The position numbers and the translations under genes are program-made. From Ruminococcus sp. (GTDB lineage Bacteria > Bacillota > Clostridia > Oscillospirales > Ruminococcaceae): a stretch of DNA of 47,751 nt. The notes beneath the pieces are model-generated. The model was not told the DNA's origin. It did no database searches and was given only the letters and a program-made list of their open reading frames with translations. Shown here in pieces: positions 10,737-26,884 of this stretch (within the stretch, counting starts at the first letter, position 1; the number at the start of each line of letters is the position of its first letter). The stretch is from assembly GCA_017934425.1 (NCBI GenBank), contig JAGBJO010000014.1, positions 1-47,751 on the forward strand, given 5' to 3'.

Positions 10737-11282
10737 TTAGTTGCATGAGAATAAAAGGAAAAGAAAGGCTACAATAATGAGAATAGTCTTAATTGCTCCA
10801 GCATGAGGGTGAATCTCTTTAAATTGTTTTTTTCGCTGTTCTTTATACACTTTGGCTGCTTCCATTTTTTCAAATTCATTCTCAAGATTATTTACGAGGC
10901 TTTCATGAGTCACAGCCGCTCTTTGAGGTGTATTGGAATGTGTATTTTGAGTTATTGGCTTTTTTAGCCAAGATATATAAATATGTATTTGAATGTAATC
11001 ATCTTCCAGTACAGAATCATGCTTCTTAATTTTAAAATTCGTAAAACCATATTCAGGCTTTTTTAATTCTTTTTTCAAGAACTCATAATAGAAATCTCGA
11101 GAATCAGCAGTTTTAAAATAAAAGTAACCTTCATATTTACTTTTACCACCTAATGCAGCATATTCACATTTTTTTAAAACATCTTGAAGCATTTTTTGCG
11201 AATCATACTTTGAATGACCATTACATTCTCTACACGTCTTATTTTCATTCGCAATACTATTCAATTCATCTGAAAAACTCAT
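10737..11282 (-). CDS. Hypothetical tail-anchored protein in AT-rich cassette
   Basis: No family recognised. The 181-residue product has a small CxxC motif (TCRECNG, about residues 17-23), a Lys/Tyr-rich alpha-beta region (about 30-105), a charged coiled coil (about 128-152) and one C-terminal hydrophobic helix (TILIIVAFLFLLFS). This suggests a tail-anchored membrane protein facing the cytosol. The start at 11282 follows AAAGAGGTG. Base composition is much richer in A and T than in neighbouring genes, a sign of transfer. It diverges from an XRE-type regulator and has a consensus promoter, so it may be a small defence, toxin or stress gene controlled by its neighbour. Confidence 0.72.
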   Translation of the reverse strand: MSFSDELNSIANENKTCRECNGHSKYDSQKMLQDVLKKCEYAALGGKSKYEGYFYFKTADSRDFYYEFLKKELKKPEYGFTNFKIKKHDSVLEDDYIQIHIYISWLKKPITQNTHSNTPQRAAVTHESLVNNLENEFEKMEAAKVYKEQRKKQFKEIHPHAGAIKTILIIVAFLFLLFSCN

Positions 11283-11313
11283 AACTGACACCTCTTTTCG
11301 ATCTATTACAAAG

Positions 11314-11349
11314 ATTATAACACATATGTATTCAAATGTCAACATATGT
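11314..11349 (-). promoter_or_regulatory. Consensus promoter with two ACATATGT sites
   Basis: On the minus strand, TTGACA and TATAAT match the sigma-A consensus exactly with a 17-bp spacer. Two identical palindromes ACATATGT lie at 11322-11329 and 11342-11349, 20 bp apart (two helical turns), one next to the -10 and one at the -35. They are candidate operators for the divergent XRE regulator. The copy next to the -10 could also be part of an extended -10 element. Confidence 0.7.
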
Positions 11350-11398
11350 AGTCAGAGAAATTCTTAAACTGGTATATCATATTATCTGAGGTGATAAT

Positions 11399-11656
11399 AT
11401 GTTTGTACCAACCCTTGACCCAAAATTAGTGGGAGAGGTAATTGCTGAACTGCGAAAGAAAAAAGGCATCTCGCAAGAAGTCCTCAGCGGTCTTGCTGAC
11501 ATTGGCAGGACGCACCTGAGCGCCATAGAACGTGGCGAGCGCAAACCTACACTTGAAACCCTGTACCGTATCGCCTGCGCCCTCGACATGAAAATGAGCG
11601 ATGTTATGATAGTACTCGAAAACAGACTTGAAAAAGCTAAGGCGGACTTGAAGTAA
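11399..11656 (+). CDS. XRE-family helix-turn-helix regulator
   Basis: The 85-residue protein is essentially one Cro/C1-type HTH domain. LRKKKGISQEVLSGLADIGR supplies the turn, and THLSAIERGERKPTLETLYRIA is the recognition and following helices typical of phage-like repressors. The start at 11399 follows GAGGTGAT. It is divergent from the tail-anchored protein gene and probably represses that promoter. The C-terminal residues EKAKADLK lie in the 36-bp direct repeat, so the end of this protein nearly duplicates the end of the gene at 10125-10718. Loss of that tail would leave the HTH fold intact. Confidence 0.9.
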   Translation: MFVPTLDPKLVGEVIAELRKKKGISQEVLSGLADIGRTHLSAIERGERKPTLETLYRIACALDMKMSDVMIVLENRLEKAKADLK

Positions 11657-11664
11657 AGTCCGCC
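11629..11664. repeat. 36-bp direct repeat, right copy
   Basis: Right partner of 10691-10726 with one difference (A for G). The hairpin is preserved but is followed by AATTCC rather than a T run, so this copy should not terminate well. Confidence 0.85.
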
Positions 11665-11733
11665 AATTCCGCATAACACCGCCAATTTCCAACAATACTC
11701 CAAAAACTGTTCCAAGTTCGCAGAAAATTTTAT

Positions 11734-11762
11734 ATGACATTTTCGGAAATATATGCTATACT
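11734..11762 (+). promoter_or_regulatory. Promoter of an orphan structured RNA
   Basis: ATGACA (11734-11739), a 17-bp spacer ending in TGC (extended -10) and TATACT (11757-11762). The predicted start is near 11769. No reading frame with a ribosome site follows. Confidence 0.7.
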
Positions 11763-11768
11763 CTAATC

Positions 11769-11956
11769 ATGGAAGTGATACAGCAGTAATGAGCCGGAAT
11801 TATATGCTATCAGCTTATGTTGTATCGAAAGGTGCATTCAGCAAAAATTATTTGGTATGAAAAAATTTTTATTATATTCCTCGCACCTTGTTCCGCTTCT
11901 AAAAGCCCAAACAGCAAACGCCGTTTTCTGAAAAAAACAGGGCTTTGTTTTATTCA
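11769..11956 (+). ncRNA. Candidate orphan structured RNA, about 185 nt
   Basis: The segment begins at the predicted promoter start and ends at a terminator (AAAGCCC 11902-11908 with GGGCTTT 11940-11946, then GTTTTATT). A closing stem (11772-11777 with 11894-11899) would hold two arms. Arm one is ATACA/TGTAT continued by ATGAGC/GCTTAT (11789-11794 with 11813-11818). Arm two is AAGGTGC/GCACCTT (11829-11835 with 11883-11889). The length resembles 6S RNA, but a single-rod 6S fold was not evident. It could instead belong to the Ro60 system just downstream. Confidence 0.55.
11902..11954 (+). terminator. Terminator of the orphan RNA
   Basis: Seven-pair stem AAAGCCC/GGGCTTT around a long A-rich loop, followed by GTTTTATT. 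The large loop makes it weaker than the best terminators in the window. Confidence 0.55.
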
Positions 11957-11958
11957 TC

Positions 11959-12270
11959 ACTGAGCCGCAGTTCAATCTGCATCAGCTCAGTACCACCCCC
12001 GGAGAACTGTCTATCTATCAGTTTCTTCACCCCTGCCCGGGAATCAGGGCAAAAAAATATGTAATAATGCTCTGCCTGAGTGTGTTAGTAGGATTCGGAA
12101 ACGGTTTTTGCCGTGAAAGCCTATACAGCAATCAACTTTACGGAGATATGAATTTGGGCTTTGTAACGTTCTCCAAACGCCGCTCACCAAAGGCGGGGCA
12201 TTGAAAAACACGTCCGACAGATTCGGACTTCCACTATCCGGGACTGTTCCATATACGGAGCAGTTTCCGG
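11959..12270 (+). other. Hairpin-rich non-coding stretch upstream of the tRNA-like RNA
   Basis: No gene is seen. Consecutive potential hairpins occur at 11959-11991 (ACTGAGC/GCTCAGT with inner GCAG/CTGC), 12089-12123 (TAGG/CCTA with inner ACGG/CCGT), 12142-12174 (GGAGA/TCTCC), 12178-12195 (CGCC/GGCG), 12212-12228 (GTCCGA/TCGGAC) and 12238-12270. The last is about 13 pairs with one bulge. The density suggests a structured leader or further RNA modules rather than spacer DNA. No clear promoter was found inside it. Confidence 0.4.
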
Positions 12271-12281
12271 GAATATAATAT

Positions 12282-12399
12282 GCGCCGTTAGCTCAGTTGG
12301 TAGAGCATGGAAAATCCCGCCTTGAAAAAAGCGGTAACTGCAACTACTTTCGTCTTTCTAACGCCAGTGTCACCTGTTCGATTCAGGTACGGCGCACCA
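12282..12399 (+). ncRNA. tRNA-like RNA with replaced anticodon region (Y RNA tRNA-mimic module)
   Basis: Perfect seven-pair acceptor stem (GCGCCGT 12282-12288 with ACGGCGC 12389-12395), discriminator A and encoded CCA (12397-12399). D arm GCTC/GAGC with GG-containing loop (12291-12306). T arm ACCTG/CAGGT with loop TTCGATT (12372-12388). Between the D and T arms lie 65 nt instead of about 23, and no normal five-pair anticodon arm with a seven-base loop forms there. The body resembles a clostridial tRNA-Lys. Bacterial Y RNAs of the YrlA type are known to carry a tRNA-mimicking domain and to be encoded next to Ro60 genes, which matches this position. Alternatives are a tRNA with an unusual insertion or a decayed tRNA. 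Confidence 0.72.
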
Positions 12400-12408
12400 T
12401 CATCAACT

Positions 12409-12479
12409 ATGCGTGATCCGTATGTACAGTACCTCCTTTTAGGCGACAGTTTTTCGCCTGTGTACTGCGGATCACGCAT
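12409..12479 (+). ncRNA. Bulged stem-loop, candidate Ro60-binding Y RNA stem
   Basis: Twelve perfect pairs (ATGCGTGATCCG 12409-12420 with CGGATCACGCAT 12468-12479), a one-sided bulge TATGTA (12421-12426), six more pairs (CAGTAC/GTACTG), an internal loop and an AGGCGA/TCGCCT tip. A long base stem with a bulge on the 5' strand and a second helix above it is the known plan of Ro-binding Y RNA stems. The stem starts nine bases after the CCA of the tRNA-like RNA and ends 34 bases before the Ro60 start codon. No T run follows, so it is not a terminator. It could also regulate Ro60 translation. Confidence 0.6.
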
Positions 12480-12513
12480 ATTCATCACCTCCCCCGAAGA
12501 AAGGAGCATATCT

Positions 12514-13974
12514 ATGCTGGAACTTTTAAGAAACGAAGCCGAAAAGACTCTTACCCTCAACGGCGAAACTACTTACACTACCTCCGGTCAGTACTGCCTC
12601 GACCTTTTCTTCGGATGCGGTGCTATGCGAAACCGTAAAACTAAGGACATCGTTAACGCAGTTAACCGTGCCTTTATAGAAGACCCTGTGGCTGCTCTGC
12701 GTATTATATTCTACGCAAGAGATATCCGTGGCGGTCTGGGCGAGAGAAACTTCTTCCGCACAGCCATTCGCACTATTGCCAAGTCAAATCCTGATGCTGT
12801 TATCCGCAATATCAAGTATATCCCCGAATACGGCAGATACGACGACCTGCTCATACTTTTCGGCACTCCTTGTGAAAAGGCTGCTATGGAATTTATCAAG
12901 GAGCAGTTTAATGCTGACATGGCTGCACTCAGCGACCCCGAAAAGCCCGTTTCTCTCCTGGGCAAGTGGCTTCCCTCTGTGAACGCCTCCTCTGATGCTA
13001 CCAAGCAGCTTGCCCACAGGATAATTAATTATATGGGCTTAAAGAGTTCCGAGTACCGCAAGGCGCTCTCTGCACTGAGACAGCGTATAGCTATCGTCGA
13101 GAATAACCTGCGTACTATGGACTACTCCTTTGAGTACTCCGCTGTTCCGTCAAACGCTATGATGAAGTACAGACGTGCATTCATCCGCAACGACGGCAGC
13201 CGCTACCGCAGCTACATCGAAGATGTAGCATCAGGCAAGGAGAAGCTTAACGCTTCCGTCCTCTACCCTTACGATATCGTCCGCAACTGCCTCACCAACT
13301 CCCAGGACGAGATAAGCTACCTGGACGCTGCCTGGAATAATCTGCCTGTTTACGGCGATAATAACGAAAATGCCATTGCCGTTGTGGACGGTTCAGGCTC
13401 AATGTACTGCCGTGAATCCAGTGTTCGCCCCATTGACGTGGCTATTTCCCTGGGTATTTACTTCGCTGAGCATAACAAGGGTCAGTTCGCCGGCAACTTC
13501 ATCACATTCTCAGAATCACCTCAGCTTATCAAGATAACCGGCACAAATATCAGCGAAAAGGTGAAGTTCGTAAGCACCTTTAACGAGGTAGCAAACACCA
13601 ACCTGGAAGCTGTTTTTGACCTGCTGCTGACTACAGCCATAAAGAATAACGTTCCCCAGAAGGATATGCCTGAGAAACTGTATATCATTTCCGATATGGA
13701 GTTTGATTCCTGTTGCTACGGTGCAGAAGATAAGACTCTTTTCCAGAAAATGGAACAGCTCTACGCACAGTACGGCTACAAACTGCCCAATATCATCTTC
13801 TGGAACGTAAATAGCTGGCAGAACAATGTCCCTGTAAGGTTCGACCAGACCGGTACTGCCCTTATCTCCGGCGCAAGTCCTGCTCTGTTCTCTATGACTC
13901 TCTCTGACGACCTCAGTCCCTTAAAGATGATGCACAACATCATCGATTCCCCACGCTACGCCTGCATCAACTGA
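12514..13974 (+). CDS. Ro60 (TROVE/vWA domain) RNA-binding protein
   Basis: Orthologue of the ring-shaped Ro60/Rsr proteins that bind Y RNAs and misfolded RNAs and, in Deinococcus, work with PNPase in RNA decay after stress. The 486-residue protein has an N-terminal HEAT-like TROVE domain and a C-terminal von Willebrand A domain with an intact MIDAS motif VVDGSGSM (Asp about residue 292). ATG at 12514 is chosen because AAAGGAG lies just upstream; the longer frame back to 12307 would translate the tRNA-like RNA and Y-like stem. The gene sits directly after those RNAs, which supports a ribonucleoprotein locus. Two terminators follow. Confidence 0.9.
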   Translation: MLELLRNEAEKTLTLNGETTYTTSGQYCLDLFFGCGAMRNRKTKDIVNAVNRAFIEDPVAALRIIFYARDIRGGLGERNFFRTAIRTIAKSNPDAVIRNIKYIPEYGRYDDLLILFGTPCEKAAMEFIKEQFNADMAALSDPEKPVSLLGKWLPSVNASSDATKQLAHRIINYMGLKSSEYRKALSALRQRIAIVENNLRTMDYSFEYSAVPSNAMMKYRRAFIRNDGSRYRSYIEDVASGKEKLNASVLYPYDIVRNCLTNSQDEISYLDAAWNNLPVYGDNNENAIAVVDGSGSMYCRESSVRPIDVAISLGIYFAEHNKGQFAGNFITFSESPQLIKITGTNISEKVKFVSTFNEVANTNLEAVFDLLLTTAIKNNVPQKDMPEKLYIISDMEFDSCCYGAEDKTLFQKMEQLYAQYGYKLPNIIFWNVNSWQNNVPVRFDQTGTALISGASPALFSMTLSDDLSPLKMMHNIIDSPRYACIN

Positions 13975-14008
13975 TCGTCAGGAAGCGGTGGATTTACCAT
14001 AACTTTTC

Positions 14009-24743: not shown

Positions 24744-26474
24744 TCAAACCTTCGGGAGTGACGGTATTTCTATATTGTCTTCCCTTGCGGTTTTCTTAGC
24801 TTTCATATATTCCGGAAGCTCGATAAGATCAAGCTCGGACTGATAGGGATTCTTCTTCTTAGGCAGCGCTTCTACTGCATGGTCAGCTTCACCCATAATA
24901 GACGTTCTATGCTCCGGCACATAAGCCTGGAGATCACTTGCATCTACTGAGTCTGTACCGCCCATTGAGATACGGGATTTCATATGTATGTTCTGTGACA
25001 GCCTGCTTACGTCCACCTGTGATGTTATACCCATTTTATCCTGAGAATGGGCAGTGCTGTGAGCCTCAAGGTCATCAGCGTTCACCTGTTCGGTCGCTTT
25101 CATATACAGTCTGTTGAATTTAGCAGCCTCATTCGGATTAAGGTCGGCAGCATCAACAAGAGGAGTATCGCCCATATAATCACGCTTTTTCTTCTCTGCA
25201 CGTCTGAGTTTGGAGAAGTCAAGACCGTCAGTGGACAAATCGCCCATACCGTCGCTGCTATGACTGGATTTACCGAAGAAGTCATCAGCGGCAGGCTTCT
25301 CGTGACGGGGATCCTTTTTGCCGTCGTCGAAGAAATCCCAGAAATCTGCTTTTTCTTCCTTCTTAGGCTTTTCAGGCTCAACCGGGCTGAGAGAAGGCAG
25401 ACCATTGCTCTGCTGCTGCATGGGTGAACTCATCATACCCTGATGCATCATACCGCTGTTCTTTTCGGTAGGTGAAGCCATTGGCGGCTGACCATAGATA
25501 GGCGAGCCGTTCTGCTCATAGCCTATGATCTGGGGCTGCATAAATACAGGCTGACCATAGATAGGCTGACCCTTCTGATCGTAACCTATGATCTGAGGCT
25601 GAGCATACATCATCTGCTGACCGGGCTGACCATAGACAGGCTGACCGCTCTGGTCGTAGCCGATTATCTGAGGCTGACCGTACATCATCTGCTGACCGGG
25701 CTGACCGTAGATAGGCGCACCGCTCTGCTCATAGCCTATGATCTGGGGCTGACCATACATCATATTCTGTGGCTGATTGCCATACCCCTGCGGAGGCATA
25801 GATGTGCCGAACTGCTGGGGCTGGTTCTGGCGGTTCTGCTGGGGGTACTGGGGCGCTCCTGCTCCAAACCCGCCAGACTGCTGACCGTAGCCCTGATTCA
25901 TGCGCTGAGGCATCTGCTGCTGACCGAAAGCACCTGGGTAAGGCTGCTGGGGCTGCATCTGCTGGTGCATCTGTCCGAAGCCTTGCTGCATGGGGGGCTG
26001 CTGTCTTTGCATAGCATTATTATTATTTACAGGCTGCTGGAAGGGATTCTGTCTTGGTGCAGGCGCTCTGCTGGTGAACTGTTCACCAGGAGCAATGTCA
26101 TCATCGTCCTCGTCAGCCAGTGAATTATCGATAGTTTTCGGCGGAGGCAGCGGCGCTGAACCGAGCGTGCCGAAACCCGATGTATCGGGTTCATCAAACA
26201 TACTGAAATCAAACTCCTCTTCAGTGTCATTAAGTTCGTCAGAGGTGTAAACTTCGGAGGTGCTGTCTGATGCAGGTCTGTCGCTTATGCAGAACACACC
26301 TGAACCCATAGTGAAACCAGAGTGATGCCCCTGTGCAAATTCTTCCTCCGTATGATATCCGCCCATATCAACGGACTCATATGTTACCTCAGAGGGATCA
26401 TCAAGATTACTGCCGCACTTCACACAAAATCTGAAGCCGTCTTCATTCATTTTACCACAAGCCGGGCAGATCAT
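24744..26474 (-). CDS. Zinc-ribbon protein with Gln/Pro/Gly-rich tandem repeats
   Basis: The 576-residue protein has an N-terminal zinc ribbon (CPACGK...FCVKCGS), an acidic region, a Gln/Pro/Gly/Met-rich low-complexity stretch (about 140-350) and a charged C-terminal region. Within the low-complexity part, a unit of about 20-24 residues based on YGQPQIIGY-[DE]Q is repeated four times in tandem, with very similar codons. No membrane helix is seen. The C-terminal part has recurring phosphorylation-like blocks (MGDTPLVDAADL, MGGTDSVDASDL). The composition suggests a phase-separating or adaptor protein; the function is unknown. Confidence 0.75.
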   Translation of the reverse strand: MICPACGKMNEDGFRFCVKCGSNLDDPSEVTYESVDMGGYHTEEEFAQGHHSGFTMGSGVFCISDRPASDSTSEVYTSDELNDTEEEFDFSMFDEPDTSGFGTLGSAPLPPPKTIDNSLADEDDDDIAPGEQFTSRAPAPRQNPFQQPVNNNNAMQRQQPPMQQGFGQMHQQMQPQQPYPGAFGQQQMPQRMNQGYGQQSGGFGAGAPQYPQQNRQNQPQQFGTSMPPQGYGNQPQNMMYGQPQIIGYEQSGAPIYGQPGQQMMYGQPQIIGYDQSGQPVYGQPGQQMMYAQPQIIGYDQKGQPIYGQPVFMQPQIIGYEQNGSPIYGQPPMASPTEKNSGMMHQGMMSSPMQQQSNGLPSLSPVEPEKPKKEEKADFWDFFDDGKKDPRHEKPAADDFFGKSSHSSDGMGDLSTDGLDFSKLRRAEKKKRDYMGDTPLVDAADLNPNEAAKFNRLYMKATEQVNADDLEAHSTAHSQDKMGITSQVDVSRLSQNIHMKSRISMGGTDSVDASDLQAYVPEHRTSIMGEADHAVEALPKKKNPYQSELDLIELPEYMKAKKTAREDNIEIPSLPKV

Positions 26475-26884
26475 AAATAATCACGCTCCTTTCCTCTCTG
26501 TACAGGCATAAAACAGCTTCCAGACCTCTCCGTGCCTAAGGGAGAATGTATGTGATCTGAGCTGTGAGGGTACGCCCGATATGATACACTATCATATATA
26601 TTTATTATAGCATTTGCCGCTGTTATTTGCAATAGTTTTCAAAAAGATTGTGCATATCAGTGCTAAACTTCCCCCAGTATTTGTACACATTTGACCCTGT
26701 TGACAATCGGACAGCCGTTCGTTTGTGTATTTTGCACAATTGTTTTCAAAATTGTCGATATATATATTATATACAGTATAGGCTGACATTTCATCGTATT
26801 TTTCGGTGTATATGCACAATTTATGGCTAAATTTCGACATAATTCAGCAAACTGTGTCTATTTTTTGAAAATTCCTTGCTGCAC
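26475..26884. other. Divergent intergenic region
   Basis: No gene is supported. It carries the promoter of the minus-strand zinc-ribbon gene (26604-26632) with a leader of about 120 nt, and AT-rich DNA up to the vanY promoter. Open frames here lack ribosome sites. Confidence 0.5.
26604..26632 (-). promoter_or_regulatory. Promoter of the repeat-containing zinc-ribbon gene
   Basis: Minus strand TTGCAA, 17-bp spacer ending TGC and TATAAT. Confidence 0.75.

Follow-up and report, generated by a model that had tools for sequence, protein, structure and literature searches.

The YrlA RNA is described in the accessible part of PMC8394870 as a stem formed by its 5' and 3' ends plus a tRNA-like domain. 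According to the accessible part of PMC7790460, this domain might inhibit an anticodon nuclease, and the RtcB RNA ligase occurs in Ro60 operons. The available portion of a study of Listeria phage CKA15 (PMC12282133) names Chen et al. 2014 as the source for Y RNAs in mycobacteriophages, and the linear phage hairpins discussed below may already be known from that 2014 work. The same portion states that the DUF2828 protein CKA15_055 was detected in virions, and that abundant CKA15 transcripts were thought by the authors possibly to be Y RNAs. A literature search, the reach of which stopped short of the primary YrlA papers, turned up no paper in which a Y RNA is connected with alaS or a T-box, and none in which DUF2828 is named together with a bacterial Y RNA.

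The window, i.e. the whole stretch of 47,751 nucleotides analysed here, comes from a 1.44 Mb assembly that is 54% complete, and homologues of its DUF2828 gene are mainly from Ruminococcus records. A reading made from the sequence alone had proposed that the leader of a Ro60-type gene contains a tRNA mimic together with Y-type modules, which is borne out in general terms. The region contains the following features, L023 being the locus of the closest relative.

11734..11762, forward strand: promoter-like site ATGACA-17-TATACT, a pattern match only, 5' of hairpin 1
11828..11893, forward strand: Y-type hairpin 1, AAAGGTGC-AT-TCAGCA ... GCACCTT-G, by the Y consensus; kept in L023
11901..11950, forward strand: Y-type hairpin 2, AAAAGCCC-AA-ACAGCA ... 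GGGCTTT-G, by the Y consensus; kept in L023
12115..12166, forward strand: Y-type hairpin 3, AAAGCCT-AT-ACAGCA ... GGGCTTT-G, by the Y consensus
12282..12399, forward strand: tRNA-Y chimera (acceptor, D arm, Y hairpin, weak anticodon-like hairpin, T arm, ACCA), by the tRNA model, model R1, identity with L023 and covariation in relatives
12317..12342, forward strand: circularly permuted Y hairpin and core, CCGCCTT-GAAA-AAAGCGG-TA-ACTGCA, with 6 of 7 pairs; same motif in relatives
12351..12363, forward strand: possible anticodon-arm remnant CGT-CTTTCTA-ACG, loop CTTTCTA, with 3 pairs here and 4 in L023
12408..12480, forward strand: long stem with bulges on the 5' strand, before the ribosome-binding site, by folding against shuffles
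12514..13974, forward strand: DUF2828/DUF7788 gene for a putative divergent Ro60-type protein of 486 aa, by Pfam and by hhalign against TROVE proteins

The counterpart of hairpin 3 in L023 reads AAAGCAC ... GTGCTTT, a C-G pair having become A-U by changes on both strands. The promoter-like site is identical in L023, and the region holds 2 matches to the pattern, where shuffled sequence has 1.8 on average. A small gene for an HTH_3 (Cro/C1-type) regulator lies 5' of the hairpin array (window positions 11399-11656). The string GTTCGCAGA-TTTTT-ATATGA, at about 11710-11735, is shared with the upstream regions of several homologues and lies 5' of the first hairpin in many loci; it is perhaps part of a promoter or operator. 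At two other loci, the divergent genes 5' of the arrays (L059 2-946 and L062 436-2791, both on the reverse strand) resemble transcription regulators, with one sub-threshold WCX match and one weak repressor match and nothing else.

The perfect acceptor, D arm, T arm and encoded CCA reported earlier are indeed present at 12282-12399: a 7-bp acceptor pairs 12282-12288 with 12389-12395, and both arms and an encoded ACCA are there. With the Rfam tRNA model (cut-off 29), the element reaches 44.7 bits (E 1.3e-7) when the 3-kb stretch 11000-14000 is scanned permissively; scans with default filters, of the window as a whole and of its locus L103, do not report it. Rfam Y RNA families, which had likewise been proposed for searching, give no match at gathering score in the window or in the loci of 20 relatives. 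The element is identical to that of L023 at 116 of 118 bases, and model R1, of which it is a member, scores it at 113.1 bits. Its folding is modest (z -1.60), and the stretch between the D and T arms alone folds no better than shuffles (z +0.76, 148/200 equally good), so that the evidence for the interior must be comparative.

This interior had been regarded as 65 nt replacing the anticodon arm. A complete anticodon arm is indeed absent, there being at most a 3-bp remnant with the loop CTTTCTA, but the stretch is a conserved domain that holds a Y hairpin and a weak anticodon-like hairpin. The Y hairpin is imperfect in the window, with one of the seven pairs missing and the core ACTGCA instead of the usual ACAGCA. 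It sits inside the tRNA, on the anticodon side, and the earlier view that the two modules lie side by side and not nested is therefore incorrect. A different nesting, in which AAGGCGGG (about 12189-12196) pairs with CCCGCCTT (12316-12323) and places the 5' half of the tRNA inside a hairpin of normal order, was rejected because the 5' arm is not kept in L023.

The 486-aa product of the window matches Pfam DUF7788 and DUF2828. It had been taken for a TROVE/vWA protein with a DGSGS motif; the motif is there, but no TROVE match is listed. TROVE (PF05731) is listed in 0/20 homologues at E up to 10, with filters under which few matches above about 0.1 survive. Searches of PDB sequences with DUF2828 profiles found no Ro60. 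When a diverse DUF2828 alignment is compared by hhalign with seven TROVE proteins (alignment A8, which excludes L208), the probability is 94.8% (E 5.1e-8, 255 columns), and the aligned region spans the last helical repeats and the vWA domain; a shallower pair of alignments gives 50%. From these profile matches, the protein is called a divergent Ro60-type protein, and not a TROVE member. The RtcB motif SHGAGR is found 5' on the same strand in 35/77 genome DUF2828 loci, one such neighbour being confirmed (PF01139, 362.7 bits). DUF2828 relatives are also present in 681 of 50,697 phage records.

Homologues of the gene are preceded by tandem hairpins composed, in order, of a 6-7 bp stem, two free bases, ACAGCA, a loop, the partner strand, and G (consensus AAGNNNN-NN-ACAGCA...NNNNCTT-G). 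Among 80 genome loci (L023-L102, which overlap in part with the genomes of L002-L022), the upstream sequence (78.7 kb) holds 293 AC[A/T]GCA cores that have a perfect 6-nt partner, and its antisense strand 0; the counts are 12 for 115 kb of coding sequence, 12 for 210 kb of downstream sequence and 10 for 393 kb after base shuffling. At least one hairpin is present in 77 of the 78 loci with at least 900 nt upstream, and three or more in 62. Without selection on pairing, 278 of 351 ACAGCA cores (those less than 25 nt from the next core or end being dropped) have a perfect 6-nt partner, compared with a mean of 24.7 and a maximum of 39 in 200 stem permutations. The paired cores have 42 different stems, and a G stands two bases 3' of the partner in 275/278.

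Similar hairpins adjoin distant Bacillota DUF2828 genes (L180, L181) and 55 of 80 viral ones (126 upstream, 1 antisense). In ten named phage loci, a scan with a looser core gave 34 sense and 11 antisense matches, of which 26 were accepted by eye as Y-type, in nine of the loci. Listeria phage CKA15 is an example, with three ACAGCA hairpins (OR088597.1 25,289-25,552) directly 5' of the DUF2828 gene CKA15_055. The abundant RNAs of this phage, as located in the available portion of PMC12282133, were considered as candidates for such hairpins and rejected, since 26,236-26,727 holds none.

When 125 genomes of the genus were searched at the DNA level, full-length relatives of the window element were found. 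Their interior reads CYGTCTT-G..-AAGACRG-TA-ACAGCA, which corresponds to the array hairpin with its base joined and its loop cut open; in general form, the chimera hairpin NNNNCTT-G..AAGNNNN-NN-ACAGCA is a circular permutation of the array hairpin. The first 19 elements extracted, from 11 loci, all have perfect acceptor pairing in several different sequences, and were used to build R1. Their alignment (A4) has 98.6% of cells paired against 89.0% in shuffles, and 49 two-sided changes against 13.5; further pair types number 16, below the shuffled mean of 18.8.

With strict filters, R1 finds 32 elements of at least 54 bits in 20/125 genomes, 11 of the 20 not being independent because R1 was built from those loci. 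The next matches (49 bits or less) resemble ordinary tRNAs of 75-76 nt. No further tRNA-Y was found in 245 genomes of the order; one extra match (G491) was rejected, as it reads as an ordinary tRNA. On the 80 genome DUF2828 loci, R1 gives one clear copy (L023) and one weak copy (L047). The element precedes DUF2828 in three genomes: that of the window, G135 (L023) and G104 (L162). In G104, two tRNA-Y pairs with four different acceptors (L162 1873-2117 and 4048-4304) lie near one DUF2828 gene, beside hairpins of ordinary order. The idea that a tRNA-like Y RNA accompanies every DUF2828 locus was discarded, a T-arm motif being present within 1 kb upstream in only 42/80 genome and 39/80 viral loci.

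Viral loci provide a second group of elements. From 80 viral DUF2828 loci (IMG/VR contigs), 45 long candidates were extracted with R1 (at least 100 nt, duplicates removed, L244 1291-1396 left out), and 34 of them have 7/7 acceptor pairs. These 34 come from 20 of the 80 loci, three duplicates included; 32 are within 1.6 kb upstream of the gene and two just downstream (L263), and several loci have three in tandem. No tRNA-Y was found by R1 in the named phages searched.

Together with the 32 cellular elements, the 34 viral ones make a set of 66, in which the acceptor pairing is partly due to selection because only viral elements with 7/7 pairs were kept. An alignment of 49 of the 66, picked by eye for diversity and alignability (A6), has 98.0% of cells paired against 66.7% in shuffles. 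Two-sided changes number 327 against a shuffled mean of 80.9, and the covariation among relatives on which the sequence-only reading had staked its proposal is thus present. Changes on both sides are seen in 21/23 pairs, with the seven pairs of the acceptor and the seven of the Y stem all among them, and when the partners are slid by one to three columns the pairing falls to 37.5-48.2%. There are 34 acceptor and 30 Y-stem strands in the alignment, and the invariant positions of the core are C, G and C. Since the acceptor, D and T arms of the viral elements differ widely and so many acceptor and Y strands occur, it appears that different tRNAs have been converted. The comparison shows the chimera to consist, as a predicted RNA, of a tRNA body whose anticodon side carries a permuted, covarying Y stem with an ACAGCA core. 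The same predicted design is seen by comparison to recur in phage contigs, next to DUF2828, and in the genus, in alaS leaders.

The alaS leader is the site of tRNA-Y in 17 of the 20 positive genomes, with one to four copies each; alaS was called by the N-terminus of the protein, and in four genomes by TIGR00344 (980-999 bits). A T-box core motif lies upstream in 14 of these 17 leaders, and the Rfam T-box model is above cut-off in 5/17. DUF2828 is present in 14/17 of the alaS-type genomes against 48/105 of the others (Fisher p 0.0076). No T-box was found in the window. The alaS gene of the window genome has no T-box motif and no tRNA-Y in about 470 nt upstream (by eye), and the alaS leader of G104 has a T-box motif and no tRNA-Y; the window copy would seem to travel with its own protein gene, and not with alaS. 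As tRNA-Y stands between the T-box and the alaS start codon, its synthesis would be expected when the T-box is opened by uncharged tRNA-Ala.

The reading we favour, with a probability of roughly 0.7, is that the window element is a tRNA-bodied Y RNA that would load a putative DUF2828 ring, and that 11.7-14.0 kb of the window forms a Ro60-type unit of small RNA and mRNA. Enzymes of tRNA processing would excise tRNA-Y, and the tRNA-like part may plausibly be released by RNase P, as had been suggested. The Y arm would dock on the ring, and the tRNA body would be the working face, attracting or occupying tRNA-handling enzymes, in line with the proposal for YrlA. Because its anticodon arm is replaced or decayed, tRNA-Y is not expected to decode, and anticodon nucleases would attack it poorly; it would therefore suit the inhibition of such a nuclease that is proposed for YrlA in the accessible part of the source.

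The unlikely possibility that best survives comparison with this reading is purely cis-acting regulation, in which the leader hairpins and the tRNA-like element are binding sites for protein or ribosome, or processing sites, and no free RNA acts. In the window, all the elements do lie in the leader, on the coding strand. Moreover, 12400-12486 folds at -38.9 kcal/mol (z -7.75, 0/200 shuffles equally good), and the bulge CTCCTTT (12433-12439) of the stem is exactly complementary to the ribosome-binding site AAAGGAG (12500-12506), which could allow translational control. The strong stem noted earlier 3' of the tRNA-like part is thus real, but as a Y RNA it was rejected: it is without the family consensus core, and its ACAGTA is paired in the fold. 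Regulation in cis does not account for the hairpins found 3' of the gene in Mycobacterium phage Winky, E. coli phage wV8 and Staphylococcus phage SEP9, for tRNA-Y before another gene, alaS, in 17 genomes, or for the retention of a whole tRNA body with a covarying acceptor.

The frequency of the element in alaS leaders (17/20 positive genomes) raises the question of whether the tRNA mimic serves to regulate alaS or its T-box, the DUF2828 copies being secondary. G3:U70 is an identity element of tRNA-Ala, and this acceptor pair is present in two alaS-leader elements, L164 1743-1843 and L168 1498-1611; these copies could be intermediates between G-C and A-U, or carry a real AlaRS signal. It is absent, however, from the other 30 cellular elements, so that charging with alanine is not expected in general. 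Since the element also occurs at a quarter of the viral DUF2828 loci (20/80), and the ACAGCA hairpin is the motif of the DUF2828 arrays, alaS-specific control is quite improbable as the primary role.

It is slightly less probable still that the Y hairpin is a removable insert in a tRNA gene, excised to leave an ordinary molecule resembling tRNA-Lys. The nearest ordinary tRNA is tRNA-Lys (7/8 of the ordinary-tRNA-like matches examined), and some elements have an anticodon-like loop, CTTTTAA or CTGTTAA, 3' of the hairpin, CTTTTAA being found at the remnant position in L106, L111 and other relatives. However, the anticodon side varies, an anticodon-type stem enclosing the hairpin in other elements; the arm is poorly formed or lacking in many, and the 83-nt form (L170 1941-2023, in the alaS leader of genome G032) has no room for one. 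No intron family is above the Rfam cut-off in the window and the relatives' loci, nor does the insert of the window element match any other Rfam family above cut-off, and the insert itself is conserved, not only the tRNA. Decay of a tRNA or an assembly artefact, which would agree with the lack of an ARAGORN call at the window element, has a negligible probability, because the near-identity of the two genomes (116/118) and the perfect, covarying acceptors of all 19 first elements contradict it.

Beyond the tRNA-bodied Y RNA as such, a broader and tentative proposal, which we hold to be somewhat more apt to be wrong than right, is that tRNA-Y is a distinct class of Ro60-type small RNA, in which whole tRNAs were repeatedly recruited and disarmed by a docking hairpin. 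In phages, such RNAs might be nuclease-proof tRNA decoys or RNA-repair adaptors, while in Ruminococcus the assembly of Ro particles might be coupled to alanine starvation through the alaS T-box, uncharged tRNA-Ala switching on a tRNA mimic. The T-box position predicts the timing of tRNA-Y synthesis, and the ACAGCA hairpins link the large and mostly unnamed DUF2828 family to Ro60-type particles. Y RNAs with open and with closed acceptors constitute a natural permutation experiment.

Several known systems share parts of this arrangement. With ordinary tRNAs (RF00005), the chimera shares the acceptor, D arm, T arm, a 5-nt variable loop and, in many cases, CCA, and the tRNA model is above cut-off for the window element (permissive scan) and for 12 chimeras (scanned by locus). 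It differs in its length, 113-134 nt as a rule, in the Y hairpin on the anticodon side, and in mostly having no usable anticodon arm. Most of the alaS-linked copies are downstream of a T-box leader, with tRNA-Y outside the Rfam T-box match. Simple ACAGCA hairpins beside the gene are common to the window and to phage Y RNAs with Ro-like genes, whereas the tRNA-Y form is from IMG/VR contigs and three genomes, not from named phages.

The YrlA and TROVE (Rsr) systems share with the window a Ro-type gene beside Y RNAs, with RtcB nearby in many loci, and YrlA also has, like tRNA-Y, a docking stem that takes the position of the anticodon arm and is joined to a tRNA-like module. Like YrlA, tRNA-Y has D and T arms and is found beside a Ro60-type gene (in the window, L023, G104 and the 20 viral loci). 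The stem signature (ACAGCA) and the protein family are different. In YrlA a Ro-type stem is formed by the RNA's own ends, as it is in the simple array hairpins, but the ends of tRNA-Y form a tRNA acceptor and its Y stem is internal. In two Bacillota TROVE loci (L176, L178), the order by eye is Ro stem, T arm, acceptor closed by a loop, D arm, and Ro stem. The Ro stem is open and the acceptor closed in these TROVE-type Y RNAs, whereas in tRNA-Y the acceptor has free ends, often with CCA, and a short loop closes the Y stem. Because the docking stem is at the same place and the circle is only cut elsewhere, tRNA-Y should work like a YrlA RNA, yet without its terminal Ro stem. On this comparison, the two RNAs appear to reach the same topology by opposite circular permutation, which suggests that tRNA mimicry itself has been selected.
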